From Synechococcus sp. CC9311 (GTDB taxonomy: Bacteria; Cyanobacteriota; Cyanobacteriia; PCC-6307; Cyanobiaceae), in NCBI RefSeq assembly GCF_000014585.1, contig NC_008319.1:620001-684000 (forward strand): a stretch of DNA of 64,000 bases, in the 5' to 3' direction. The stretch's first letter is position 1; the number at the start of each line of letters is the position of its first letter. Under the pieces are notes generated by a model. It was given only the letters and a program-made list of their open reading frames with translations. It did not search any database and was not told the origin of the DNA. Both the position numbers and the translations under genes were made by a program. Below are positions 1,869-16,246 of the stretch, one piece after another.

Positions 1869-3500
1869 CTACCACTGACGGAATGTGTCGATCCCAGTGC
1901 CAAGAATCCCCCGGTTGATGGTGCGTCCAATGCCAGTGAAACCACTGTTCTTCCACTCCCATAGTTCACCTGCTTGCATGCTGAGGTGTTGATTGCTGCC
2001 TATGTCGGTTGTGGTGAGTTTGAGTTGATGTCCATTCGCACAGAATGCATGGGACCAGATCATTCCTCGTAGTTGAGTATCACCGGTTAGATGGACGCTT
2101 CCACGGGGTAGAGACACCATGGCGGAAGGAAGGCTCACTCCTTGTATCTTCAGTTGCTGCTGTGATGGTTGGCAGTTTTGAGGTGAATCTCCAGAACTGG
2201 CTGTGATCACAAGGCGTTCAGGTCTGTTGTTACAGCTATCGTCGGATCCAGTATTGACCCCGCAAATTTGAGCGTTGTTTCCTAGCTGGATTCCTCCACT
2301 CATTCCGGATGGAGAGGGTGAAGCACCCTGGGGTAATTCCATGTGCAGCACCACTGGACGGCTGTCGTTTTCGATCAGCAATCGAGAGTTTTTTTGTAAG
2401 TTGATGTGCTCCACATAGATATGGCAGTCGCCACTGTGGCCAGGGCAAATCGCTGTTGCGGGAATGCGCACTGAATTGCCTTCCCGTATAACATCCATAG
2501 GTGCTCTCCGACGGCTATCTGTTTTGTCTCTAATGCAAATAGAGGAGCGATTCCTGCGTGGTCCGCATTGATTTTTTGTGTCATCAAAACTCCAAATATG
2601 CTCATCAATCTTGGGTCTGATTGCATAAAGGTTGCTCGGTGGAAGAGTTCTATTCAAGACAGGCCAGATCCGTAATCCCAATTGGTTGTCATTATCGGTT
2701 TGTCCACGTGCTTCTGTGAGCAGTGTGTCGCTTGAGCATCCGTCAGTACGGAGATAGGGCTGATTGGTTTGGACCAAATGAAGAATGCTTCCTGGCCCGA
2801 CGATCTGGGCTGGGCCTAAATCCAAATATTGGGCTGTTAATACACCCCAATCATTCTCATTTGAAACGCTTCCATTCACATAGAGGGAGCGGGTCAGGAG
2901 CGTACGAGCAAGCATCTGCTCTTCGCCAGAATTGTTGATGCGTTTGACGACGCCTTCAACCTCAAAGACTCCTTCTCCTACTCCAGTTTTGCTTGGGCTT
3001 GAGTAGCCTCGCATGCGATAAAAAGCCTGAATTTTCCCCTGTGAATCCTCCCGAAATAGTTTACGATCACTCGTATGAAAAGGTATTTCGTTGGTTGGCC
3101 AAGACCTTGATGCAATGGGATGATCGGGCATTCCTATACTGGTATCTGTGCAGATTTCCTCCAAATTAAGCTCAGGATTGTCTTGTAAATTCAACCAGGT
3201 TAATCCATTATTCGCGGCAGACGTATTTTCTTGATTGTCGATCGTGAAGAGGAATCCCCGATACTGATCTTTGTCTGGGTTGTTCAGTAGCGCCAATATC
3301 CTGTTAAATCCATTCAGTGCAGCAGCTTCTGATATTTGCTGATAGCTTTCTGAACTGCTTAGCCTTTTTGCGTATAATTGATTAATCAATAAAGCGCTCG
3401 CTCCGGCGCTCAGCACCAATCCCAGCATTAGCGCCAGTAATATTGCAATCCCGTTTTCGTCCTCCCGAAAATGTTTGTTTCTAGTGGTATTGATCTTCAC
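1869..3500 (-). CDS. Large PilX-like pilus protein, module A
   Basis: A 543-residue protein with an N-terminal segment ENGIAILLALMLGLVLSAGA, like the PilX N-terminus: a hydrophobic helix after a short basic leader, with no Glu +5. It is followed by SYQQISEAAALNGFNRIL, also conserved in its 588-residue paralogue at 8903-10669. The rest is a long, Cys-containing, probably surface-exposed domain; both copies end GxGxDTFRQW/RRW. It is much larger than classical PilX (about 200 residues), so the extra domain is special to this lineage or to this pilus type. Start overlaps the preceding pilin stop by four bases, consistent with one operon. Confidence 0.8.
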   Translation of the reverse strand: MKINTTRNKHFREDENGIAILLALMLGLVLSAGASALLINQLYAKRLSSSESYQQISEAAALNGFNRILALLNNPDKDQYRGFLFTIDNQENTSAANNGLTWLNLQDNPELNLEEICTDTSIGMPDHPIASRSWPTNEIPFHTSDRKLFREDSQGKIQAFYRMRGYSSPSKTGVGEGVFEVEGVVKRINNSGEEQMLARTLLTRSLYVNGSVSNENDWGVLTAQYLDLGPAQIVGPGSILHLVQTNQPYLRTDGCSSDTLLTEARGQTDNDNQLGLRIWPVLNRTLPPSNLYAIRPKIDEHIWSFDDTKNQCGPRRNRSSICIRDKTDSRRRAPMDVIREGNSVRIPATAICPGHSGDCHIYVEHINLQKNSRLLIENDSRPVVLHMELPQGASPSPSGMSGGIQLGNNAQICGVNTGSDDSCNNRPERLVITASSGDSPQNCQPSQQQLKIQGVSLPSAMVSLPRGSVHLTGDTQLRGMIWSHAFCANGHQLKLTTTDIGSNQHLSMQAGELWEWKNSGFTGIGRTINRGILGTGIDTFRQW

Positions 3501-4030
3501 CCGCTACTCCCTTGGCATTTTAACGAGTTAATATTTGCCGCCTCATCTTTGCGGCCAATGATTTGATCACTGGCGCCAGTTTGAAGATCAATGCAAGCAA
3601 TGATGTTTAAATCCGACGCTGCTGTGTTAGTTGCTATAGCTTCAAATACGTAGTATTTTTCTGCATTCATACTATTGATTCGATTCAATTGATAGCGTTC
3701 ACCAGGTAGGGTAATCGCCTTCGTTAAATCGCCGTCTTCTATCACGGCTGGGCCTTGATTTGTCATCAAGGTTGTCATGGTGTTCAGGTCAACCCATCGC
3801 TTAGGTTGCGTTCCAAACTCATCGGCAAATGCAGCGACCGTTGCCATCATCTGTGCCATCGTCGCGTTCGCTTCAGCCTGGTGCGTCTTTTGGATTTGAC
3901 GAAAATAATTGGGCAGGGCAATTGAGCTCAAAATGCCGACAATTCCCACGGTGATGATCACCTCTGTCAAGGTGAAGCCTTTCAGCCCAAGAGGCCTATC
4001 GGAATCAAGTCTTTTGAGCGAGGTGAGCAC
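3497..4030 (-). CDS. Type IV pilin-like protein, module A second position
   Basis: A 177-residue pilin beginning at GTG 4030. The motif LKG|FTLTEVIITVGIVGILSS fits class III signal peptides, and ALPNY follows as in major pilins. The globular part resembles its paralogue at 10670-11245 (ATVAAFADEFG / TTIAAYADEYG; NIIACIDLQTGASD / NVVACINLSNGASD). The upstream 600 bases contain no gene and a strong terminator for the PilA-like gene, so this gene probably has its own promoter in this copy. Function as a minor or alternative pilin subunit is inferred. Confidence 0.8.
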   Translation of the reverse strand: MLTSLKRLDSDRPLGLKGFTLTEVIITVGIVGILSSIALPNYFRQIQKTHQAEANATMAQMMATVAAFADEFGTQPKRWVDLNTMTTLMTNQGPAVIEDGDLTKAITLPGERYQLNRINSMNAEKYYVFEAIATNTAASDLNIIACIDLQTGASDQIIGRKDEAANINSLKCQGSSG

Positions 4031-4639: not shown

Positions 4640-5146
4640 TTACGCGCTGCAATCAAGATCCGAGTCGTCTTTAAATGATTTTCTTATCTCTATTTTTCCT
4701 GTTGTGAGATTTACGCATCCATCAAGGGGTGTTCCATCCGTCTCAGCCGTTACTAAGGTTGCATCACCGCCATCAGCGCTTGGATTGGCTTCTGCAGTAA
4801 CCGTTACTTGATCATCATCAGCCCCTTCGTCCGCTGTATATGTAAAATTGTCAGAATCATTTTCTTCTGCTTGTTCTTCAGCAGCAGCTATAGCAGTTGC
4901 TATCTCTCCATCAAGTTGATATTCAGCATGAGCGTCTTTTAAGATTGCGGAAATTTTAGTCTTGGCTTCAGTTGTCTTTGCTTTGGTGGTGTTATTAAGG
5001 AAATTTGGCAAAGCGATTGCGCTCAAAATCCCTACAATCACAATGACTATCATCAACTCCACTAACGTGAAGCCCTTTTGAACTAGACCAGGCTCCTTTT
5101 TTCTGCTGAGAATTGAAAGTTGAATGCGGCTGTTGAGGATGCTCAT
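4640..5146 (-). CDS. PilA-like type IV pilin, module A
   Basis: A 168-residue pilin. The leader ends VQKG|FTLVELMIVIVIVGILSA, the classic N-methylated pilin start with Glu +5, and continues IALPNFLNNTTKAK. The N-terminal half is nearly the same as that of the module B paralogue at 11334-11888, while the C-terminal domains differ completely: this copy is acidic (AEEQAEENDSDN...) and ends CVNLTTGKIE...DCSA with two Cys that may form the usual D-loop disulphide. It has its own terminator and an unusual upstream region with 11-bp repeats, so it may be expressed separately as the major subunit. Confidence 0.85.
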   Translation of the reverse strand: MSILNSRIQLSILSRKKEPGLVQKGFTLVELMIVIVIVGILSAIALPNFLNNTTKAKTTEAKTKISAILKDAHAEYQLDGEIATAIAAAEEQAEENDSDNFTYTADEGADDDQVTVTAEANPSADGGDATLVTAETDGTPLDGCVNLTTGKIEIRKSFKDDSDLDCSA

Positions 5147-5927: not shown

Positions 5928-7517
5928 TTAGCTGTTTTCTTGCAGATTTTCCTTGTCGATTTGATTGTAATAGCCTTGTGTCTTTTCTGACAGCATTTCC
6001 AACCACCTTGACTCAAGACCAAGCGATGTGGAGTTGACAATAAGAGCGCGATCTTTGCCATTATGGTTTCTGTCATGGTTTTCATTTGCGTAGTAATCTG
6101 CTGTTGATTGATGATCCCAATTGGACCATCCCCCACCATTCCTGTCTCGATTGGGTTGCCCATCAGACATGAGGTAGAGAGTGTCTGTCTCTGTATCATC
6201 AAAGGCTTTTTGTATTGCTTTCCATGGGTAAGTACCTCCCCATTTGGTTACTTTTGAATCATCAAGAGTGTTTACAAAGGCAATCGCTGAATCTCTCTTG
6301 CCCTCATTTCCAATCCTTACCAAGCCATTGCTTGATTCGCTCCATTCCCTGTTGTTCATGTAACCATCTGAACTAAAAGAGGTGATGCCCACTTTGGTGT
6401 TTACCGGCAATTGATCCAGGATCATCGTCATCTCACTGATGAGTGCCTCCATCCGAGTGAGAGCACAAATTCGACGCGTGTCGCGGTAGCGACCTTCTTT
6501 GGGATCGTAGAAGGTGCGCCAAGTCCCATAGCCCTCACCCCACATCACACAGGCACTCATGGAGCCCGACCCATCGACTGCAAAGCGCACCTTGTTGCTG
6601 GTGATGTTCTGGAAGAATGCACCACTCAAGGGTCCTCCTTGACCGTCGTCTCCGAAGTTGCCAATGCGCTTGTCCGCTCTTGCGAAGGCAGTGAAATAAA
6701 GGGGCTGTTCGGTTAGTTGCTTGTCACCAACTCCCAGCTTATTGATGAAGCTCTGAGTGATGCTGTCTTCCGTTGATTGGGTAGGATCTATGAATTTTAT
6801 AAGTTTGTAGTTTGTATCTGTTTCGATTCGAAGTCCCGGTTGTCGTTCACTGCGGTTTGGAGTCTTTCCGGCTGTAAATGTAAAGTTTGTGCTTGCAAGA
6901 ATCTGTGCCAATGTGGGAGCATTGTCTTCGCAGGCTGTGGACAAACTTTCCCCTTGATTGAGCTCGCTTTTCTGGCGGCAGGGAATGGCTCCAACGTGAT
7001 CGATGACACGTGATAAGAAGAGATTTTCCGTTTCTTTGTATTTGCCACCAGGATCAAGTGGTGCTCCACAGCGTTCGATGCTGTAGCCGCCTGATCCAAT
7101 GCTGACTCCGTAAAGTACTGGCTTAGTTAATTCAACCATCTTTACACCAAACATTGGCTTAAAGAGGCTATTCCCTGCAAGAGCTGCACATTCGCTGAGA
7201 AGAGAGCTATAGCGACTGTCGCTGAGATTGATGTGCGCTTGATCCTCTGAAGTACTTTCCGTTTTGTTGAGCACTAGATGCATACTGCGTTCCACCTCTG
7301 ATCGCATTAATCTCAAGCCATTGATTGAATTCTGGCGAAGGGTTGTTTTTACTTCTGACTGCTTAATCAATGTTCCAGTGGATCGCAATGCGGCGCCGGA
7401 AGCCATGATTAAAAGCGTTCCGACGCCAGATGCGATTATTAGCTCACTCATGCCAGCGAAACCATTCTGCTTCTGTGGTTTACGTGGAATCGTGGATAGA
7501 AATTGTTTTCGTGCCAT
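5928..7517 (-). CDS. PilW-like prepilin fused to a von Willebrand A domain, module B
   Basis: A 529-residue protein. Residues 15-40 are a prepilin-like helix (NGFAGMSELIIASGVGTLLIM), although Glu is at +6 if cleavage follows the first Gly; the module A copy has the canonical +5. Residues 40-300 are a pilin-type region with several Cys. From about 310 a vWA domain begins: the MIDAS is complete, with DGSGS, a Thr in GGTYPW and an Asp in LMSDGQP. Modular pilins with a vWA module are known (for example PilB of Streptococcus sanguinis) and act as tip adhesins, as does vWA-bearing PilY1. An adhesive tip role here is inference. It is last in its module, 96 bases after the GspH-like gene. Confidence 0.85.
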   Translation of the reverse strand: MARKQFLSTIPRKPQKQNGFAGMSELIIASGVGTLLIMASGAALRSTGTLIKQSEVKTTLRQNSINGLRLMRSEVERSMHLVLNKTESTSEDQAHINLSDSRYSSLLSECAALAGNSLFKPMFGVKMVELTKPVLYGVSIGSGGYSIERCGAPLDPGGKYKETENLFLSRVIDHVGAIPCRQKSELNQGESLSTACEDNAPTLAQILASTNFTFTAGKTPNRSERQPGLRIETDTNYKLIKFIDPTQSTEDSITQSFINKLGVGDKQLTEQPLYFTAFARADKRIGNFGDDGQGGPLSGAFFQNITSNKVRFAVDGSGSMSACVMWGEGYGTWRTFYDPKEGRYRDTRRICALTRMEALISEMTMILDQLPVNTKVGITSFSSDGYMNNREWSESSNGLVRIGNEGKRDSAIAFVNTLDDSKVTKWGGTYPWKAIQKAFDDTETDTLYLMSDGQPNRDRNGGGWSNWDHQSTADYYANENHDRNHNGKDRALIVNSTSLGLESRWLEMLSEKTQGYYNQIDKENLQENS

Positions 7518-7613: not shown

Positions 7614-8273
7614 TCATCTATTTTTACAGCTTGACGTGGCTTGATTCCAGCTGGCGCTCAATACGGTACCGGTCCCGGATATTTGTAAGCAACGCGTGCG
7701 CAGCCTCTTCTCACTGGTGTTAGTTGAACGAATGAGAAAAATTAGATTATCAGACATTGTGCTGGTACCTGGCGGTGTTAATTCATAGGTTGCAGAATTA
7801 ACAGCAACCTCCACAACTTGTGATTCAGCAGTGCCTTCTCGGTCTATTAAACGCAAGGATCGGTCACGTTGTACTTTGCTTTTTTGTAGTGAATTAGTGA
7901 TGGATGATGCAAGCAAATCTCCGATCTGGGGTCCATTTGCGCAACCACTGGGTTCTCCTGCTGCCCTTATATCGCTATTGCAACATTCAAGACGTTCAGG
8001 ATGCTCGCCCATCTCCACCAGATCTGATGGAGGTACAAAGTTGTTTAGACCTGAGTGATCAAACCTGAGTGTGCAGCTTGTTTTTTGCTTGCCTAACTTG
8101 GCACGAAGTGCAAAGAAGCCAGCTTCAATTTGCTGGGTGTAGCGATCGACTTCGCCTTGTCGCATGTTGCGGATATAGGTGGGAATTGATGTTGATAGGC
8201 CAATCGAGATGATCACGATGCCCACCAGAAGTTCTAATAATGAGAATCCTTCAGTTGCGTGTTCTTGTGTCAT
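7614..8273 (-). CDS. GspH/FimT-like pseudopilin, module B
   Basis: A 219-residue minor pilin starting at ATG 8273, which overlaps the previous stop as ATGA. The motif HATEG|FSLLELLVGIVIISIG has Phe +1 and Glu +5. It shares with the module A copy (827-1399) the order helix, EVDRYTQQIEAGFFALRAKL, a Cys-containing middle and a C-terminus ending in SWNQATSSC. It is about 30 residues longer, mostly in the middle. Minor-pilin function is inferred from family and operon position. Confidence 0.85.
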   Translation of the reverse strand: MTQEHATEGFSLLELLVGIVIISIGLSTSIPTYIRNMRQGEVDRYTQQIEAGFFALRAKLGKQKTSCTLRFDHSGLNNFVPPSDLVEMGEHPERLECCNSDIRAAGEPSGCANGPQIGDLLASSITNSLQKSKVQRDRSLRLIDREGTAESQVVEVAVNSATYELTPPGTSTMSDNLIFLIRSTNTSEKRLRTRCLQISGTGTVLSASWNQATSSCKNR

Positions 8274-8809
8274 GTTTGGTAACACTGAGACGCAAAATTT
8301 GGATTCATTTCTATAACTCGTATTTCATCCTCGATTTGCTTTTCTGGCCCTTCAAAACTATAACTGATCTTGAGGATTCCTGGAATTGTACTGAAATCAA
8401 AGGTGCGGGTGATTGGTTTGTTCTTTGAGACAACTGTTGAGCTTGGCTCTGAGTCAACGTGAACTATAAGTCTTGGATCTTGGTCAATGGTTTTGAGGTG
8501 CTCACCTAACGTTTCAGCTGGACTTGAGCAGGCCGTTTCGAAATTATATTTGTCATTGTTTTTGATCCACTCTTGTGTGAAATAAGAATCTTCTTTTTGC
8601 ATGGTCTGAATGTTGTCATTGATCGCTGCTTCCATGCTTGCCCTGGCGGATGAATGTGCACTCACGCTGAGGGCTGCTACGGAAAGTCTCCCCACTGCTG
8701 TGAGGGCAGAGGCCATTAAGATTCCAGCAATCAAGACCTCCACAATGGTGAATCCATTGGCTGTCACCTTGTGTTGACTTTGGTGTCGATAGCGACCCTT
8801 GATATTCAC
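8270..8809 (-). CDS. PilV/GspI-like pseudopilin, module B
   Basis: A 179-residue minor pilin. After a 19-residue leader comes TANG|FTIVEVLIAGILMASAL with Glu +5. It corresponds in position and pattern to 1396-1866 of module A, with the shared ending NPNFASQC / HPTFAPRC. The gap to the preceding large gene is 93 bases, while its end overlaps the next gene by four, so coupling is tighter downstream than upstream. Confidence 0.85.
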   Translation of the reverse strand: MNIKGRYRHQSQHKVTANGFTIVEVLIAGILMASALTAVGRLSVAALSVSAHSSARASMEAAINDNIQTMQKEDSYFTQEWIKNNDKYNFETACSSPAETLGEHLKTIDQDPRLIVHVDSEPSSTVVSKNKPITRTFDFSTIPGILKISYSFEGPEKQIEDEIRVIEMNPNFASQCYQT

Positions 8810-8902: not shown

Positions 8903-10669
8903 TTACCAACGGCGGAATGTATCCAGGCCACTGCCCCGAATGCCGCGGGTCACCATCTGGCCATAGCCAGGAAAGTTTTTATTTTCCCAGCCCCAAAGAT
9001 CATTGAGATCGCGAACGACGCTGCTGCTTCCGTTGGTGTCGGTCATCAAGGAGAACGGTCCTGAGTTGGTGCAGATTCCATCAGCCCAGATCAGGCCGTT
9101 CAGTTTGGTTCCGCTGCTGCCTGTTTTTACAAACCCTGGAATGAGATGAACAGTTGCATTGGGCAGACTGTCGCCATCAAAGGCCAGCACGTATTGATCA
9201 GTTTGTGGAGAGACCGAATCACAACTGCGTACGCCTGAGGGTTTCGGTGCTGCCGAGAGAATCACCAGTTGCTCTGGTTCAGCGTTGCAGGTTGTTTCCT
9301 CATTGTTCACACCACAAAGTTCGCTGCCGTTGCCGAGACTGATGCTGCCGGTGATGCCAGTTTCTGAGGGTGCCACGGTGGATGTTCCTGGATATTCCAA
9401 ATGCAAGACCACGGGCCTGCTGGCGCTGGTTTCGATCAGCAACCTTGTGTTGGTGAGGTTGATGTGTTCAACGAATACGTGGCAGTCGGATCCTTTGCCA
9501 TTGCACAGTTCATTGGTACTGAGTCGGATCACTGCAGCGTTATCTTCTTCGATGTCTGGTCGGCTCTGCGCAGTGGCTGTATTGGTATCTCGACTGCAAG
9601 CAATGGATTGGCATTCCTGCAGGCCTTGTGTGTCATCAAAGGTCCAGATCCGTACGTGTTCTGAGCCTGGATGCTTGTCCTGGGTTAGACCTAAGTCCCA
9701 GATATTGCTTGTCGGAAGACCCCCCAGGATTGGAACGATTCTGTCCTTGAGATTATCGTTGTTATCACTGGCGCGAACGTCTTCAAGCAGATCGTCGGGA
9801 TCGCATCCTGTTTCCTTTTGATAGGGCTCAGCGCTACTTACATTGAGCAATACTTTTCCATTGCCGATATCTAGGTTGCTTTTCAGGATTTTGGTGTCAC
9901 CGAGGGAGAGTGTGGGGCCTGACAATACAGCCCAATCTCCCTCGCCTACGACGATCGAGTTCACATAGAGGGAACGTAACAACAGCGTTCTCGCTAGGTA
10001 ATTTGTTTTGGGGTCATCACCATCCCGCAAAACAATGCCTTCGATTTGGAAGCGCCCTTCTCCTAATCCGTTGTTTTCGGCTGTTGCTGTTGTTGCATAG
10101 CCCCTCAGTCGATACTGGAGTTTGATGTTGTTCTGTCCATCCTTGCGTTGGCTGGTAGTGCCTGCTGTTAAATCCGTATGGGGAGGATTTGCGTTTCCTG
10201 CATCAGCGGGCACCGCTGCTGGTAGTTGACTTCGATCGGTGCAGAGCTCTCTGAGCAGGAAGTTTGTCTGGTTTGCAGGGTTCCAACCCCACTGCTCAGA
10301 TCCTGGATTTTCTGGATTGCCGCCGTTGTGATTGAGGGTGAAGAGGTATCCCTTGTATTTGCTTTTGACCTCCTCATCTCCACCGCCTTGTTTGTCCTTA
10401 TTTAGATCGCTATCGACCTCCCTGTGATTGTTCTCATTCAGCTCGCTGAGGATTCGGTTAAATCCATTCAAGGCTGCCGTTTCGGCCATCTGCTGATAGC
10501 TCTCGGCGGCTCCAAGTTTGCGTCCCATTAGTTGCCGTAGAAGCAATCCGCTCACCCCTGCGATTAGCACCATTCCCATCATCAAGGCGAGCAATAAAGA
10601 AAGCCCTTGTTCTTGTGCGGGAATCTTTAGACCCGATCTTTTAATGCCGAAGGCTCTTGGAAATTTCAT
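8903..10669 (-). CDS. Large PilX-like pilus protein, module B
   Basis: A 588-residue paralogue of the 543-residue protein at 1869-3500. The N-terminus has EQGLSLLLALMMGMVLIAGV then SYQQMAETAALNGFNRIL; later shared blocks include WAVLSG/WGVLTA, HVFVEHINL/HIYVEHINL and the ending GSGLDTFRRW. ATG 10669 directly follows the stop of the preceding pilin with no gap. About 45 extra residues, mainly an acidic Asn/Asp/Lys-rich insertion near residue 60, distinguish it. Expected to be an inner-membrane-inserted minor pilin with a large exposed domain; its ligand is unknown. Confidence 0.8.
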   Translation of the reverse strand: MKFPRAFGIKRSGLKIPAQEQGLSLLLALMMGMVLIAGVSGLLLRQLMGRKLGAAESYQQMAETAALNGFNRILSELNENNHREVDSDLNKDKQGGGDEEVKSKYKGYLFTLNHNGGNPENPGSEQWGWNPANQTNFLLRELCTDRSQLPAAVPADAGNANPPHTDLTAGTTSQRKDGQNNIKLQYRLRGYATTATAENNGLGEGRFQIEGIVLRDGDDPKTNYLARTLLLRSLYVNSIVVGEGDWAVLSGPTLSLGDTKILKSNLDIGNGKVLLNVSSAEPYQKETGCDPDDLLEDVRASDNNDNLKDRIVPILGGLPTSNIWDLGLTQDKHPGSEHVRIWTFDDTQGLQECQSIACSRDTNTATAQSRPDIEEDNAAVIRLSTNELCNGKGSDCHVFVEHINLTNTRLLIETSASRPVVLHLEYPGTSTVAPSETGITGSISLGNGSELCGVNNEETTCNAEPEQLVILSAAPKPSGVRSCDSVSPQTDQYVLAFDGDSLPNATVHLIPGFVKTGSSGTKLNGLIWADGICTNSGPFSLMTDTNGSSSVVRDLNDLWGWENKNFPGYGQMVTRGIRGSGLDTFRRW

Positions 10670-11245
10670 TTATCCACAGTTGGGAGTTGTTGCTTCTGCC
10701 TTAATTGACCCTCGATTGATGTCACTGGCACCGTTGCTGAGATTTATGCAAGCGACCACATTCAGCTTTGATTCTTCGCGATTTGCTGTAATCGTGAATA
10801 AATTAATATTATTTGATATTCCCACTTTGTAGTTCCCATTGGCAAGAATGATCTCATCGTCTTCAAAGCTTTGCGTATTATCATCAACGCTTTCAGGCTC
10901 ATCACCAAGACTTTTAGTCTCATCGTCTTTGAGCTCGGTTATGGGGCCTTCTACAGTCATTATGGCGCTAATGTTATGGAGATCGAGCCAACTTGTTGGT
11001 AGAATTCCATATTCATCTGCATAAGCGGCTATAGTTGTTTGCAGCTGTGAGACTGTTGCCACAACCTCATTTTGTGTTGTGCGGTTCACTTGATTGATGT
11101 AGTTTGGCAGTGCAATGCTTGAGAGTGTTCCGACGATTGCAACCGTTATAATGCATTCACTTAGTGTGAATCCGTGATCGCAAGTTATTTCCTTGATCGT
11201 GTTCGCTGCTGTCGAATAGGTTTTCCATCTGTTGGTTATGGCCAT
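10670..11245 (-). CDS. Type IV pilin-like protein, module B second position
   Basis: A 191-residue pilin from ATG 11245, preceded by AAAGG at a reasonable spacing; a GTG 12 codons upstream is an alternative. The motif DHG|FTLSECIITVAIVGTLSS has Glu +5 followed directly by Cys, unusual in a pilin helix, then ALPNYINQVNRT. An Asp/Glu/Ser-rich segment (residues about 105-135) is absent from the module A paralogue. The shared block NVVACINLSNGASD near the C-terminus marks the pair as paralogues. Confidence 0.8.
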   Translation of the reverse strand: MAITNRWKTYSTAANTIKEITCDHGFTLSECIITVAIVGTLSSIALPNYINQVNRTTQNEVVATVSQLQTTIAAYADEYGILPTSWLDLHNISAIMTVEGPITELKDDETKSLGDEPESVDDNTQSFEDDEIILANGNYKVGISNNINLFTITANREESKLNVVACINLSNGASDINRGSIKAEATTPNCG

Positions 11246-11277
11246 GATTCGTCGCCTTTGATTCCTTTCTTGTTGTC

Positions 11278-11314
11278 GCACTCTCTCGAGTGAATTATTC
11301 GCTTTAGAGAGTGC
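11278..11314. other. Hairpin between the first two pilin genes of module B
   Basis: GCACTCTCT and AGAGAGTGC form a perfect 9-bp stem around a 19-base loop. No T-run follows in either direction, so it is more likely an mRNA stability or processing element, or an attenuator, than a simple terminator. Confidence 0.5.
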
Positions 11315-11333: not shown

Positions 11334-11888
11334 TTAGCTTTTGCCTGCTTCTGGATTACCAATTACAATGGTTCCGCTTGATAGGGCAGGGATATCTGGT
11401 GTTGGTGCTTGGTAACCGGCTTCTCCTTCTACACCACTTCCTGAGGATCCCGTTACAGCATTTTGAGCGGTTAAGTAAACGGAAGATGTGATTGTCGATT
11501 CTGAAAGACTTCCGCTGGTCGTATTTCCTGTTGCGATAATTTGATTTGTATCAGCATTTTCTGGATCTGGGCAGCTAAAAGTGAAATACCTTGTGTCTGC
11601 TGGACATGGGATGCTTCCAGTTCCAATAGCAGAATTTGCAGCTGACAAGCCGCCCTCTTGGTATGCGGCATAAATCTGTTTTAAATAGGAGCTAGATACA
11701 CTTTTGGCTTCGGTGGCTTTGGCTTTATCTGTTTGGCTTAAGAAGTTCGGAAGTGCAACAGCAGACAAAATCCCAACAATCACAATCACGATCATCAGCT
11801 CCACCAAGGTGAAGCCCTTTTCGAGAAGATTGCGGCTTTTCTTGCGGTTGATCAGGGCCAATTGCATGCGGCTATTCAGTGGATTCAT
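11334..11888 (-). CDS. PilA-like type IV pilin, module B
   Basis: A 184-residue pilin. LLEKG|FTLVELMIVIVIVGILSA gives cleavage after Gly, Phe +1 and Glu +5. The first 60 residues are very close to the module A PilA-like protein; the remainder is different, Ser/Thr/Gly-rich, with two Cys near PCPADTRYFTFSCPDP. It opens module B, with 88 bases and a hairpin before the next gene. Conserved assembly helix with diverged surface domain is the pattern expected of alternative pilus subunits under diversifying pressure. Confidence 0.85.
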   Translation of the reverse strand: MNPLNSRMQLALINRKKSRNLLEKGFTLVELMIVIVIVGILSAVALPNFLSQTDKAKATEAKSVSSSYLKQIYAAYQEGGLSAANSAIGTGSIPCPADTRYFTFSCPDPENADTNQIIATGNTTSGSLSESTITSSVYLTAQNAVTGSSGSGVEGEAGYQAPTPDIPALSSGTIVIGNPEAGKS

Positions 11889-11989: not shown

Positions 11990-12003
11990 TAAGAACGTTC
12001 TTA
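11990..12003. promoter_or_regulatory. Perfect 14-bp palindrome at the start codon of the histidine kinase
   Basis: TAAGAACGTTCTTA is a perfect palindrome whose last base is the A of the kinase start codon. It lies in the 114-base divergent region shared with the module B pilin promoter. A dimeric repressor site or a start-masking hairpin are both possible. Confidence 0.4.
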
Positions 12004-13313
12004 TGGTTCTGGCTTCATCGCGGAAACATCTGTTTTTACCGTCCCTGCGGATTGGCTTGCAGTCCGCTGCTCTGCTCTCCGTGATCGCTGGCTATGCCTT
12101 GTTCTTGGCGATTAACGCTGGTTTGGCGGATGTCCAGCGTCGTGACAATCACCAGCGCTTAGCTGCCTCCTTGATCCTGCAGCTCAGGGGTGCAACACCT
12201 CCTGCTTTGCCTTTGGAAAACGAGACGTTGCAGATTCGCCTGCATTCCGAGGGGCCTGATTTGCTCCCTCAGCAGCAATCACTTGCGGAAGGACAGCAGT
12301 GGCTGGTGAGTCGTCGTCGCGTTTCAACAGCGCAGGGCGATTGGCAGTGGTTGGAACTGCGTCAAAACATCACTCATTCCCTAGCCCAGGAGCGCTTCAG
12401 CCAGCTTTCGTTGCTCGCGCTGGCTGGTGGGTCAATCTTGTTGACCTTTGTTTTGTTGCGTCTTGTACATCGCCGTGAACTGGTGTTGCCGCTTCAAGAG
12501 CTTGATCATCAGTTCCAGACTCTTGATGCTGACAATCTTGGTGATCATTTGCTCGATCCGGATCATCAGCCGCATGAGTTGCGCCCAATCGCCTTGGCTT
12601 TCAACAACCTGCAGGAACGCCTGGCTGTCGAGTGGAAGCGTGAGCGCAGCTTTGTTGATGGAGTTGCCCATGAGCTGCGCACGCCCATCACATTGATGTC
12701 TGGCCACGCCCAACGTCTTCAGCGGCATCCGCTCCCACTTGAGTTACAACGCTCCATCTCGGTGGTTGCCTCAGAAGCCAAGCGGATGGGGGTGACTATC
12801 ACGATGTTGCGTGACTTGTCCCGCGCAACAGCGGGGCGTTTGGACTTGAAACTGGAAAACCTTGATGTCGATGAGCAGTTGCTGATTGCTTATGAACGTC
12901 TTTCCTTGGTTGCTGATGGACGTTTGCTGTTGCCAACACCTCTGTCTACAACGTCTACAACTTTGATCGGTGATCATTGCCGGGTTCAAGAGTGCCTTGA
13001 TGCCTTAGTTAAAAATGCGTTGCTCTACAGCGAAGGACCTGTCTGTTTGGAGGCCTCCTTAGAGGAGGATTGCTGCGTGCTGCATGTGCTTGATTCTGGA
13101 TGCGGAACTTCCTCATCAGAGCGCTCTTTTGAGTTGCAGCGGTTCAGGAGAGGAACCAGCTCGGCTGGCAGTCGTGGCTCGGGGATTGGCTTATCACTGG
13201 TGGATGCCCTGCTGAAAGCGATGGATGGCAGCTTGCAGATTGCTGATGTGCCCGGCGGTGGCGCAGATTGTCAGATGCGCTTCAGGCGCTCGTTTTCTCC
13301 AGCCTCGCCATGA
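12003..13313 (+). CDS. Sensor histidine kinase
   Basis: A 436-residue membrane kinase. One membrane segment near residues 15-35 and a second near 140-160 enclose a periplasmic sensor of about 100 residues; a HAMP-like linker follows. The HisKA box is GVAHELRTPITLMSGH (phospho-His about 221), then the N box ALVKNALLYSEG and G boxes DSGCGT and GSGIGLSLVDALL. It is divergent from pilin module B and converges with the OmpR-type regulator at 13282-14013, overlapping it by 32 bases. The neighbourhood suggests it senses a signal for pilin expression; that is inference. Confidence 0.9.
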   Translation: MVLASSRKHLFLPSLRIGLQSAALLSVIAGYALFLAINAGLADVQRRDNHQRLAASLILQLRGATPPALPLENETLQIRLHSEGPDLLPQQQSLAEGQQWLVSRRRVSTAQGDWQWLELRQNITHSLAQERFSQLSLLALAGGSILLTFVLLRLVHRRELVLPLQELDHQFQTLDADNLGDHLLDPDHQPHELRPIALAFNNLQERLAVEWKRERSFVDGVAHELRTPITLMSGHAQRLQRHPLPLELQRSISVVASEAKRMGVTITMLRDLSRATAGRLDLKLENLDVDEQLLIAYERLSLVADGRLLLPTPLSTTSTTLIGDHCRVQECLDALVKNALLYSEGPVCLEASLEEDCCVLHVLDSGCGTSSSERSFELQRFRRGTSSAGSRGSGIGLSLVDALLKAMDGSLQIADVPGGGADCQMRFRRSFSPASP

Positions 13314-14013
13314 ATCCAATCCCTCGAATGGTGTGGAGAAGTTGGGGGTGATCTGGCTTCTCTACTTTGCGGCGCAGGTAGCCCATATAGACATCCAGCG
13401 TGTTGGGATCACCCACGAACGGCGCACCCCACACTCCTTCCAAAATGTTTTTGCGGTGTAGCACCTCCCCATGGTGGCCAATCAGATAGCAAAGGAGATC
13501 GAATTCCCGTTGCGTTAGCGAGAGCTTGTGTTCGCCTCGATGCACCGCTCGTTTTAGGAGGTTGATGCGCAAGTCTCCGAGCTCCAACTGTTCCTTTTGT
13601 TTTTCGGCAGCGGCGAATGTGCCACGTCTAAGCCGTGCTCGAACCCGTGCATGGAGTTCCCTCAGTTCAAAGGGTTTGCTGATGTAGTCATCAGCTCCAT
13701 AGTCGAGGGCTTGCACCCGTGCGTCGAGATCATCGTGGGCCGTGAGCATCAGCACCGGTGTGGTGTTGCCACTGCTCCGCAGGCGCTGGCAGATCTCCAG
13801 GCCGTCGAAATCGGGCAGGTTCCAATCCAAAACCACAAGGTCAAAGCGTTGCTGCCGCAGAAGTGTTAGGGCTTTACTACCAGTTTTGCTGCACGTACAC
13901 GTCACTTTGTCGCTTGTGAACTCTTCATAGAGAAAGCTCAGCAGCTCTGGATCGTCATCAACGAGCAGCACTTGGGATTTGGGTTGTTGACCTTCGTGAT
14001 CGTGCTTGCTCAC
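13282..14013 (-). CDS. OmpR/PhoB-family response regulator
   Basis: A 243-residue regulator. I chose GTG 14013 because AGAGG lies 7 bases before it and the receiver domain starts soon after; an ATG far upstream would add a low-complexity tail. The receiver has the acidic pair in VDDDPELL, the phospho-acceptor in VVLDWNLPD, Thr in MLTAHD and Lys in ISKPF. The C-terminal winged helix ends LHTIRGIGFMARLE. Encoded opposite the kinase at 12003-13313 and overlapping its 3' end, so the two are a probable pair despite not sharing a transcript. Confidence 0.9.
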   Translation of the reverse strand: MSKHDHEGQQPKSQVLLVDDDPELLSFLYEEFTSDKVTCTCSKTGSKALTLLRQQRFDLVVLDWNLPDFDGLEICQRLRSSGNTTPVLMLTAHDDLDARVQALDYGADDYISKPFELRELHARVRARLRRGTFAAAEKQKEQLELGDLRINLLKRAVHRGEHKLSLTQREFDLLCYLIGHHGEVLHRKNILEGVWGAPFVGDPNTLDVYMGYLRRKVEKPDHPQLLHTIRGIGFMARLEKTSA

Positions 14014-14126
14014 ATTCAAACCTCTTCTTTTTTTTCCAGCTCTTTGTCCAATCTCACATTGATTTTCCTCTGAGACATCCCCCCTTTGGGGGATTGTCTT
14101 GACTCTTTGTGTCTCTCTGACGGGCG

Positions 14127-14714
14127 ATGGTCTGGAGTTTTTGTTGGATGCTCTTGCCCTTTCTGCCACTTTGTGATTCGCAGGGGGAACACTTCCTGCA
14201 GTTGCGTGTTGATCCTGTGCCTCTTGCGACGGCATCTCGGCCTCAAGCTCAGGCTGGTTTTGTCTTGCCCCTGGCTTTGTCTGCGTCAGCGGTGTTGCTT
14301 TTGGGTAGCGCTTCCATCTACACCCTCAGTCTTCAAGGACGTTTGCGCCTGCATGCACTTCTAAGGCGGGATGTCACTGCTGATCAGTTGCGTTCCGCGG
14401 CACAAGCGTTTGCTGCAGCTGCCCGTGGGCCTGAATCTTGTTTGCTGCCGTGGCCATTCACGGATTGGTCTGATATCGCCCAGTCCTGCGAAGGTGCCGA
14501 TCCATTCGCGGTGAGTCGTGGTGTGGTGGCTGAGATTCCATGGTCTCTACTCGATTGGCAGCCCAGCACTCGCAGTGGGCAATTGACACTGCAATTGGCG
14601 GACGGCCGAACCGGAAGCTTTCGGCTTGGGTTAGATCCCACTGCTCCTGCCGTACTCGGTATTGGTGATGTTCAGCTTCAGGCCCGAGTTCCTCAGCTGG
14701 AGGGCGAGTCATGA
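14127..14714 (+). CDS. PilX-like minor pilin, third pilin set
   Basis: A protein of up to 195 residues that opens a four-gene minor-pilin set on the plus strand. The segment QAG|FVLPLALSASAVLLLGSASIY near residue 43 is a PilX-like N-terminal helix, preceded by an unusually long leader; ATG 14148 (GGAG upstream) is an equally good start. Cys pairs occur in the exposed part (ESCLLPWPF; AQSCEG). The stop overlaps the next start as ATGA. Its slot matches the large PilX-like proteins of the two modules, but it is only a third of their length. Confidence 0.65.
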   Translation: MVWSFCWMLLPFLPLCDSQGEHFLQLRVDPVPLATASRPQAQAGFVLPLALSASAVLLLGSASIYTLSLQGRLRLHALLRRDVTADQLRSAAQAFAAAARGPESCLLPWPFTDWSDIAQSCEGADPFAVSRGVVAEIPWSLLDWQPSTRSGQLTLQLADGRTGSFRLGLDPTAPAVLGIGDVQLQARVPQLEGES

Positions 14715-15139
14715 CGTTGGTTGAAGTGGTGGTTTCGTCTGTTGTGTTGGCCGGTGGCAGCAGTGCCGCCCTGGGCGTATGGAATCAGGCTGCTCATGAA
14801 ATTCAACGCTCTACCCAGTTGGATGCTTTGTCACTTCAATTGGAGACCGCGCGTATCGCTACGGATCGTTGGCTTCAGTCAGCACCGGTATCCGCTGATT
14901 TGCTCGATCCAAGCTCACAAGACTGCAGCTTTAATGCAACGGCTTTAGAAGCAGCCCTTGCTGATCGCTTGCCGATTGGATCTGATGTTCGCAGCCGATG
15001 GACCCCCGATCCGCAGGGTCTTGGTTATTGGTTGGAACTCAGTGCTGTTCCCCAGAAACAAGCGTCTCCATTGATCAGGCGTTTGCTGTTTACGCCTGCG
15101 GCCTATGGCCTCTGCCAGCCCGAGGATCTGAGCTCATGA
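14711..15139 (+). CDS. PilV/GspI-like pseudopilin lacking a leader peptide, third set
   Basis: A 142-residue protein whose very first residues, MTLVEVVVSSVVLAGG, are the mature pilin N-terminus with Met in place of Phe +1 and Glu at +5. Upstream in frame there is a stop 16 codons before and no ATG, GTG or TTG in between, so no longer start is available without a frameshift. The rest resembles GspI/PilV proteins, with Cys in the exposed domain. It overlaps the genes on both sides by four bases. If the start is right, the protein would bypass peptidase cleavage. Confidence 0.7.
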   Translation: MTLVEVVVSSVVLAGGSSAALGVWNQAAHEIQRSTQLDALSLQLETARIATDRWLQSAPVSADLLDPSSQDCSFNATALEAALADRLPIGSDVRSRWTPDPQGLGYWLELSAVPQKQASPLIRRLLFTPAAYGLCQPEDLSS

Positions 15140-15654
15140 GCTTGATCGAGCAGCTGATGGTGGTGAGTGTCCTGGGGATTGTGCTGTCGGTTCCATTTGT
15201 GACGGGTCGCAGCGATCGTGATCAGCTTCAACTGGATGCCAGTGCGCGACGCTTGCAGATCGGTTTGGATCGAGCTCGCAGTATCGCCAAGCGTGAACAG
15301 CGAGCTTGCGGAATTGCTCTCACCGAGGAGGGGTTTCGTGCTCCTGATGAAGAGTTCCTGAGTGGTGCCATTCCCTCCTGTACTGGGATCGGCTTCTCGT
15401 TGCAGGAGGATTTTGAGCATGGCCCGATTGTCTTGAGTACCAACCTGCCGTCGGTGTTGCGCGTCACCGCCAATGGTTTGATTTTGGATGGAGGAATCGC
15501 GGTGCTCAGTCATCCACGTTTAGTCAAAGCTCGTTGTTTGGTGGTGAGCTTGCCCTTGGGAGTGAGTCGCATTGGCTCTTATCAGGATCCACTTCCTTCC
15601 AAGGGCGGGCGCCTAGGAAGTAGTCGTTGCTTGCCTCATGTCTCAGCGCGCTAA
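15136..15654 (+). CDS. FimT/GspH-like pseudopilin lacking a leader peptide, third set
   Basis: A 172-residue protein beginning MSLIEQLMVVSVLGIVLS, again the mature pilin start with Met at +1 and Glu at +5. The frame is open further upstream, but inside the preceding gene and without a Gly|Phe motif; ATG 15136 overlaps the previous stop (ATGA) and is the natural start. The middle has LDRARSIAKREQRACGIAL, typical of GspH/FimT proteins. Together with its leaderless neighbour this is an unusual pair. Confidence 0.7.
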   Translation: MSLIEQLMVVSVLGIVLSVPFVTGRSDRDQLQLDASARRLQIGLDRARSIAKREQRACGIALTEEGFRAPDEEFLSGAIPSCTGIGFSLQEDFEHGPIVLSTNLPSVLRVTANGLILDGGIAVLSHPRLVKARCLVVSLPLGVSRIGSYQDPLPSKGGRLGSSRCLPHVSAR

Positions 15655-16246
15655 GTGGATGATCAGGCAATTTCCTTCAACAAATGCCAATCGTGGCTTC
15701 ACGTTGATCGAGCTGCTGCTCTCCCTGAGCCTTGGCAGCATGCTGTTTGTTGTGTTGCTGCAGCTGATCGGCGCTGATCTACGCCTAGGTAAAAGTATGG
15801 CGAGTCGTTTGCGTGAATCGGCGCAGCGCCGCCGCACCTTGGAGCTGATTCGTGATGAATTAGCGATTGGCTCTACCTGGATGGTTGATCCTGCTGTCTC
15901 CCATCAATGGCCCTGTGCCATGGCTGGCCGGCAGCCCGTGTTGGCGATCGGCTTGGATTCAGCTCACACCCAGGCTTCAATTCAAACCATTGTTTACAGC
16001 GTGGGAGCTGCGCCCTCACCGATTTGGCGCGGCCAGGTTTTGATGCGTTGCGGGCCCGCCTACGGACTCGATGGTGTGATCAGGGCAGGGGGTAGGGCCC
16101 AAAATCGTGTTCTCATTGATGGATTACCTAAACAGGGTTTGGGGTTTCAAGCTCGCCTTGACTCTCAATCCAAAGTGCTGCATCTCGAGTTAGAGCAGCT
16201 GGCTGATGGTGGCTCTGGACGCCTTCGCTCTGTTGCGGTGTTTTGA
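15638..16246 (+). CDS. PilW/GspJ-like pseudopilin, third set
   Basis: A 202-residue minor pilin with a proper leader: ANRG|FTLIELLLSLSLGSMLF, Phe +1 and Glu +5. LRESAQRRRTLELIRDELAIG after the helix is characteristic of PilW/GspJ proteins. It overlaps the previous gene by 17 bases and ends the X-V-H-W set. Unlike the PilW-like proteins of the two modules it has no vWA domain. A single normal prepilin among leaderless partners is notable. Confidence 0.85.
   Translation: MSQRAKWMIRQFPSTNANRGFTLIELLLSLSLGSMLFVVLLQLIGADLRLGKSMASRLRESAQRRRTLELIRDELAIGSTWMVDPAVSHQWPCAMAGRQPVLAIGLDSAHTQASIQTIVYSVGAAPSPIWRGQVLMRCGPAYGLDGVIRAGGRAQNRVLIDGLPKQGLGFQARLDSQSKVLHLELEQLADGGSGRLRSVAVF

Follow-up and report, generated by a model that had tools for sequence, protein, structure and literature searches.

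The window analysed here, a stretch of 64,000 nucleotides from the genome of Synechococcus sp. CC9311, carries on its reverse strand a module of six pilin-like genes (module A), encoding, in order, a PilA-like (major) pilin (positions 11334-11888), a PilE-like pilin (10670-11281), a large PilX-like minor pilin of 588 aa that has no Glu5 (8903-10669), a PilV-like minor pilin (8270-8809), a FimU/GspH-like minor pilin (7614-8285; the GspH-type match is weak and the name is mainly by position) and, as the last of the six, a modular minor pilin of 529 aa with a vWA domain (5928-7517), which is thus the terminal gene of its module, as originally predicted. The names of the PilA, PilE, PilX, PilV, FimU and PilW kinds follow position and weak family hits. 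The set is doubled in the CC9311 genome, module B, also on the reverse strand, comprising PilA-like (4640-5146), PilE-like (3497-4030), PilX-like (1869-3500), PilV-like (1396-1962) and FimU-like (827-1405) genes and a paralogous vWA pilin, of which the window holds the N-terminal part (1-482), the rest, outside the window, being taken from the whole genome (L030:6394-8031). The two vWA pilins are 43% identical and belong to different older subfamilies of the tree, and a recent tandem duplication is thereby ruled out. In a near relative, the reading frame at 5928-7517 is conserved to 97% and shows a dN/dS of 0.13, and so represents a real, constrained gene.

Beside the PilA-like gene of module A, a histidine kinase is encoded divergently (12003-13313, forward strand), together with a response regulator (13282-14235, reverse strand). 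This pair flanks the module in many relatives, and the module adjoins lepA in almost every relative fetched. A third set follows on the forward strand (14127-16246), consisting of a PilX-like gene (14127-14714) and a PilV-like gene (14711-15139), both named through position and N-terminus, a FimU-like gene (15103-15654), the only one of these three with a family match, and a plain PilW-like pilin of 202 aa without an add-on domain (15638-16246), recognized by profile and hhalign comparisons. This set possibly serves competence. A scan of the module for promoters and terminators returned sites no more numerous than in shuffled sequence.

A prepilin with a C-terminal vWA domain

The 529-aa protein starts with a basic leader of 19 aa ending in Gly, MARKQFLSTIPRKPQKQNG (residues 1-19; 7461-7517, reverse strand, as are all features of this gene), and continues with FAGMSELIIASG, the Gly thus standing before a long hydrophobic helix, which is the arrangement of a class III (prepilin) leader of type IV pilins. 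The Gly is aligned in nearly all homologues, the exceptions being L010, which reads AGQIS, and L051, in which a leader is not readable, due to a frameshift or a wrong start. The pilin helix occupies residues 20-77 (7287-7460) according to AlphaFold2 models and the alignment, and it spans mature residues 5-58 in the model of the pilin module, the pLDDT of its first 26 residues being below 50. The first Glu is found at mature position +6, an unusual place for a type IV pilin, and this stems, as had been proposed, from a one-residue insertion relative to the paralogue (GFAGMSE versus GF-GMAE). The same position is seen in 13 of 41 homologues (FAGxxE, YASMSE, QISLTE, MVSLTE), which group together in the tree and require at least two changes; this tree was built quickly, and some of its branches are long. 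As the feature is clade-wide, a sequencing slip is ruled out. Glu5 is not strictly defining for type IV pilins, and tip pilins of the GspK/PilX type do without it.

The globular portion that follows the helix (about residues 78-250; 6768-7286) is modelled with a pTM of 0.72, and it carries the signature RCGxxxxxxGxY (residues 149-160; 7038-7073), whose RCG core is shared with the RTX-type and the plain PilW-like pilins described below. In a Foldseek search with the pilin module, the best PDB match was the entry of the Vibrio EpsI:EpsJ pseudopilin heterodimer, at a non-significant E of 0.14. None of the PilW models of Pfam matched the vWA-pilin homologues at E<=1, PRK10557 matched 5 of 28 of them weakly, and the Escherichia coli minor pseudopilins PpdB and PpdA, compared singly, aligned at the leader and the helix only. 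The protein is therefore called PilW-like by position, from the order PilX-PilV-FimU-PilW that recurs in three sets of this genome, in which the neighbours likewise owe their names to position and weak family hits. The PilW assignment draws on gene position and the two weak matches (EpsI:EpsJ and PRK10557), which counts against the reading proposed below, as does the unusual place of the Glu.

The vWA domain (about residues 305-523; 5949-6605) is predicted confidently by AlphaFold2 for the full-length protein, using a 28-row alignment, with pLDDT mostly 80-93 and lower values near residues 321-370. Foldseek identified 17 PDB entries at E<=0.001, complement factor B and 16 TFIIH-containing entries, in which we take the matched chain, from a reading of the entries, to be the vWA subunit; all 17 look like vWA proteins, and RGLG1 and mussel PTMP1 come next, with E slightly over this threshold. 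The predicted fold is thus of the Rossmann-type vWA kind, and the structure prediction that had been proposed as a check bears out a single protein consisting of a prepilin helix, a pilin-like region with a moderately supported fold, and a C-terminal vWA domain. The MIDAS residues are complete, as the original prediction had claimed, comprising the first motif, D315-G-S317-G-S319 (6561-6575), Thr429 within WGGT (6231-6233) and Asp452 within SDG (6162-6164). All were present in 28/28 homologues and then, in a larger alignment, in 41/41 (DGSGS, Thr and Asp alike), so that a homologue missing any of them, which would have spoken against the prediction, was not found; this conservation and the fold rule out a chance match to the motif. 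The putative MIDAS would hold a divalent metal, most likely Mg2+, and would probably do so permanently in seawater.

The sole trace of the domain in Pfam is a VWA_2 score of 15.8 bits, below the curated cutoff of 27, so that the domain would probably go unnoticed in routine annotation. At E<=1, VWA_2 is found in 24 of 28 homologues, and the best VWA_3 match reaches 1.2e-5. With the 529-aa protein as the query, phmmer produced no match among PDB sequences; PDB sequence searches, including those by profile, gave nothing usable, and the Streptococcus sanguinis PilB was not found by profile. A separate observation is that of weak matches to CglB, the gliding lipoprotein of Myxococcus (NCBIfam), in 6 of the 28 homologues (best E 0.0025).

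Distribution of the module and exchange of its outer domain

A full-length vWA-pilin profile matched 36 of 271 sampled genomes of the family at E<=1e-10, four of these (G107, G119, G145, G154) through short or weak pieces only, and no full-length match was found in the phylum sample searched beyond the family. Two of the four, G145 and G154, belong to one genus of the family (g22), have genomes of 1.7 Mb and give weak matches confined to the vWA half, the frames being 456-468 aa long. In L062 and L065, the reading frame examined shows no relative. The members of the six-gene module are recognizable, in order, in 20/20 relatives fetched, a count that is not one of complete modules, as several relatives have a gene cut at the fetched end or are missing one PilA- or PilE-like match. 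Of 31 congeners, 21 have the large PilX-like protein, and exactly these 21 have the vWA pilin, while ATPases of the assembly/retraction type are present in all 31.

Between CC9311 and the near relative G006, the two vWA genes have dN/dS values of 0.13 and 0.18, which is purifying selection, at dS of 0.11 and 0.25. The PilA- and PilE-like genes of both modules (11334-11888, 10670-11281, 4640-5146 and 3497-4030), in comparison, show dS of 0.6-1.8, suggesting that shaft genes may have been replaced through recombination while the tip gene was kept.

Six near-complete congeners do not have the vWA pilin, and lepA was located in five of them. In three (G003, G005 and G008), the lepA locus is occupied by another pilin set, made up of a PilA-like gene, a gene whose product begins like PilX and a gene for a large pilin (431-449 aa). 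The large, RTX-type pilin adjoins lepA in G003 and G008, while in G005 one further pilin-like gene comes after it, and the kinase-regulator pair is seen at the locus in G003 and G005. A repetitive RTX-like protein of 1870 aa is encoded inside the alternative module of G008 (L092:4351-9963). The lepA locus of G011 has no pilin genes other than a PilA-like one and those of the plain set, and in G019 the RTX form is located elsewhere in the genome. Four such RTX-type, PilW-class pilins were delineated (L091:12522-13829, L089:11875-13170, L092:1880-3229 and L097:1471-2679), the first three of them at the lepA locus with the same kind of neighbours as the vWA pilin. They possess a homologous pilin module, followed by C-terminal RTX calcium-binding repeats instead of the vWA domain: PF00353 scores above cutoff in L091 (E 4e-14), L092 (E 2e-13) and L097, and at 14.1 bits, under the cutoff of 23, in L089. 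Genomes with two vWA modules each (G007, G013 and G028) encode an additional large pilin of the RTX-type group; in the two of them scanned with PF00353, the model just passes in G013 and fails in G028.

Homology of the pilin parts is supported by hhalign for all three forms, vWA versus RTX type (96.9%, E 1.7e-10), vWA versus plain PilW-like (85.7%, E 5.5e-6) and RTX versus plain (97.2%), and a profile of three RTX pilins alone recovers the plain pilin of CC9311 (9.5e-6) and, in two relatives, the vWA pilin (4.1e-7 and 2.7e-6). The plain pilin at 15638-16246 thus has the homologous module, the RCG signature and the last place in the PilX-PilV-FimU-PilW order, and differs from the vWA pilin in having no add-on domain. 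As judged from sequence, these comparisons show an exchange of the putative tip domain, vWA for RTX or the reverse, on the same pilin module, which suggests that cells exchange what their pilus tips grip.

A proposed tip pilin with a metal-dependent binding domain

The protein is probably a PilW-class modular minor pilin that displays, at the tip of the pilus, a domain for metal-dependent binding, and this domain would be one of at least two interchangeable ones, the tip place, the ligand and the adhesive role being what we infer. Prepilin peptidase would cut off the 19-residue leader, and the pilin module would join the adjacently encoded PilX-, PilV- and FimU-like subunits in a complex that starts a type IV pilus and stays at its tip, the pilus being composed of the module's own PilA-like subunit. 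The order of the genes and their co-occurrence suggest this arrangement, as does the FimU-PilVWX tip complex, which is already known. With the pilin module in this complex, the vWA domain would face outward, and its MIDAS, on a predicted fold and with conserved residues, would hold the metal. An acidic group of a partner may then complete the metal coordination, leading to metal-dependent attachment to a cell, a particle or a polymer. The tip domain would be the replaceable part, and, as the pilin module bears RTX repeats in sister modules, strains may differ in tip binding.

The original prediction likened the protein to PilB of S. sanguinis, and aptly so with respect to architecture, as PilB likewise combines a type IV pilin module with one C-terminal vWA domain possessing a complete MIDAS and is proposed for the tip; its vWA module binds proteins, and such a two-module design can be a true adhesin (PMC8179133). 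The CC9311 protein differs in being PilW-class, in a PilX-PilV-FimU set of a Gram-negative cell, in its large globular pilin part with the RCG signature and in the exchange for RTX in relatives. Modular pilins such as PilB are already known, and the CC9311 protein is a variant of that design. Tip proteins of the PilY1/PilC type are known from Pseudomonas, Kingella, Legionella and Neisseria. PilY1 carries a vWA domain with MIDAS on a FimU-PilV-PilW-PilX tip complex, as proposed for CC9311, but it is a separate protein with a beta-propeller, while the CC9311 domain is fused to the pilin.

One alternative is an assembly factor, in which the vWA domain would cap or nucleate the pilus and the MIDAS would serve folding or the binding of a partner subunit such as the large PilX-like protein, and an external ligand would not be involved. 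The sharing of the same 21 of 31 genomes by these two proteins agrees with such a role, as do the piliated cells of WH7803, which showed no aggregates (PMC7994388). PilY1, the supplier of such a part elsewhere, points the same way, its beta-propeller (PF05567) being absent from the vWA pilin and unmatched in the 31 congeners and in 292 phylum genomes, but these searches were run without a positive control. However, the plain PilW-like and the RTX forms have the same kind of partner genes alongside, so the vWA domain is unnecessary for a basic assembly role, and the metal of PilB, important as it is for function, can be dispensed with as far as structure is concerned (PMC8179133). We consider this alternative unlikely, yet the most serious of those weighed here.

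Considerably less probable is a role in sensing mechanical force or surfaces, like that of PilY1 or Caulobacter CpaL, with the adjacent histidine kinase and response regulator relaying the signal. CpaL/TadG of the Tad pili likewise joins a pilin-like module to a vWA domain with MIDAS, is predicted at the tip and has been proposed to act in surface sensing, but it belongs to another system, its vWA domain is split by beta-rich domains, and its deletion increased surface attachment. CpaL shows that the pilin-vWA design can instead restrain surface sensing (PMC12607857). The kinase gene, divergent next to the PilA-like gene and accompanied by the regulator in many relatives, would fit this reading, but the RTX-form genomes have the same kinase neighbour, and so the kinase is not specific to the vWA form. 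To our knowledge, no surface response is known in these planktonic cells.

A DNA-uptake (competence) tip protein is very improbable, as vWA domains mainly bind protein ligands, the plain PilW-like set at 14127-16246 would be the more natural competence set, and some congeners, G003, G005 and G011 among them, have retained the plain set while lacking the vWA form. In favour of this reading, the minor pilins PilA3 and PilW are required for transformation of Synechococcus elongatus, whose PilW is a plain cyanobacterial form with no add-on domain (PMC7125226).

What is known of the biology of these pili speaks against the preferred reading, of a metal-dependent binding domain at the tip. Pili of marine Synechococcus hinder sinking and grazing, and deletion of the PilA1/PilE pili in a related marine strain resulted in sinking and grazing defects, with neither aggregation nor twitching noted (PMC7994388), and an adhesion phenotype is thus not known from these organisms. 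Provided that genome G001 is strain WH7803, the orthologue of that strain lies within or close to the published pilA1-pilE cluster, whose description does not mention a von Willebrand domain, and searches of the open-access literature turned up no publication in which a vWA tip protein is named for marine Synechococcus.

Overall, the protein provides a concrete candidate for a tip protein, with one putative metal site and likely partner subunits, and the occurrence of vWA and RTX forms at one locus amounts to a natural experiment. The vWA domain of the tip would here be built into a pilin rather than carried by PilY1, while escaping Pfam's own cutoff. More tentatively, and with somewhat less than even confidence, we propose a picocyanobacterial tip-exchange locus between lepA and the two-component pair, at which one to three whole pilin modules would be gained, lost or swapped, the outer domain of the PilW-class pilin being either vWA, with its MIDAS, or RTX, with its calcium repeats, and the adjacent major pilin being replaced even faster. 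Strains may in this way rapidly change both the binding specificity of their pili and their coat, perhaps under the influence of grazers, phages or partners.
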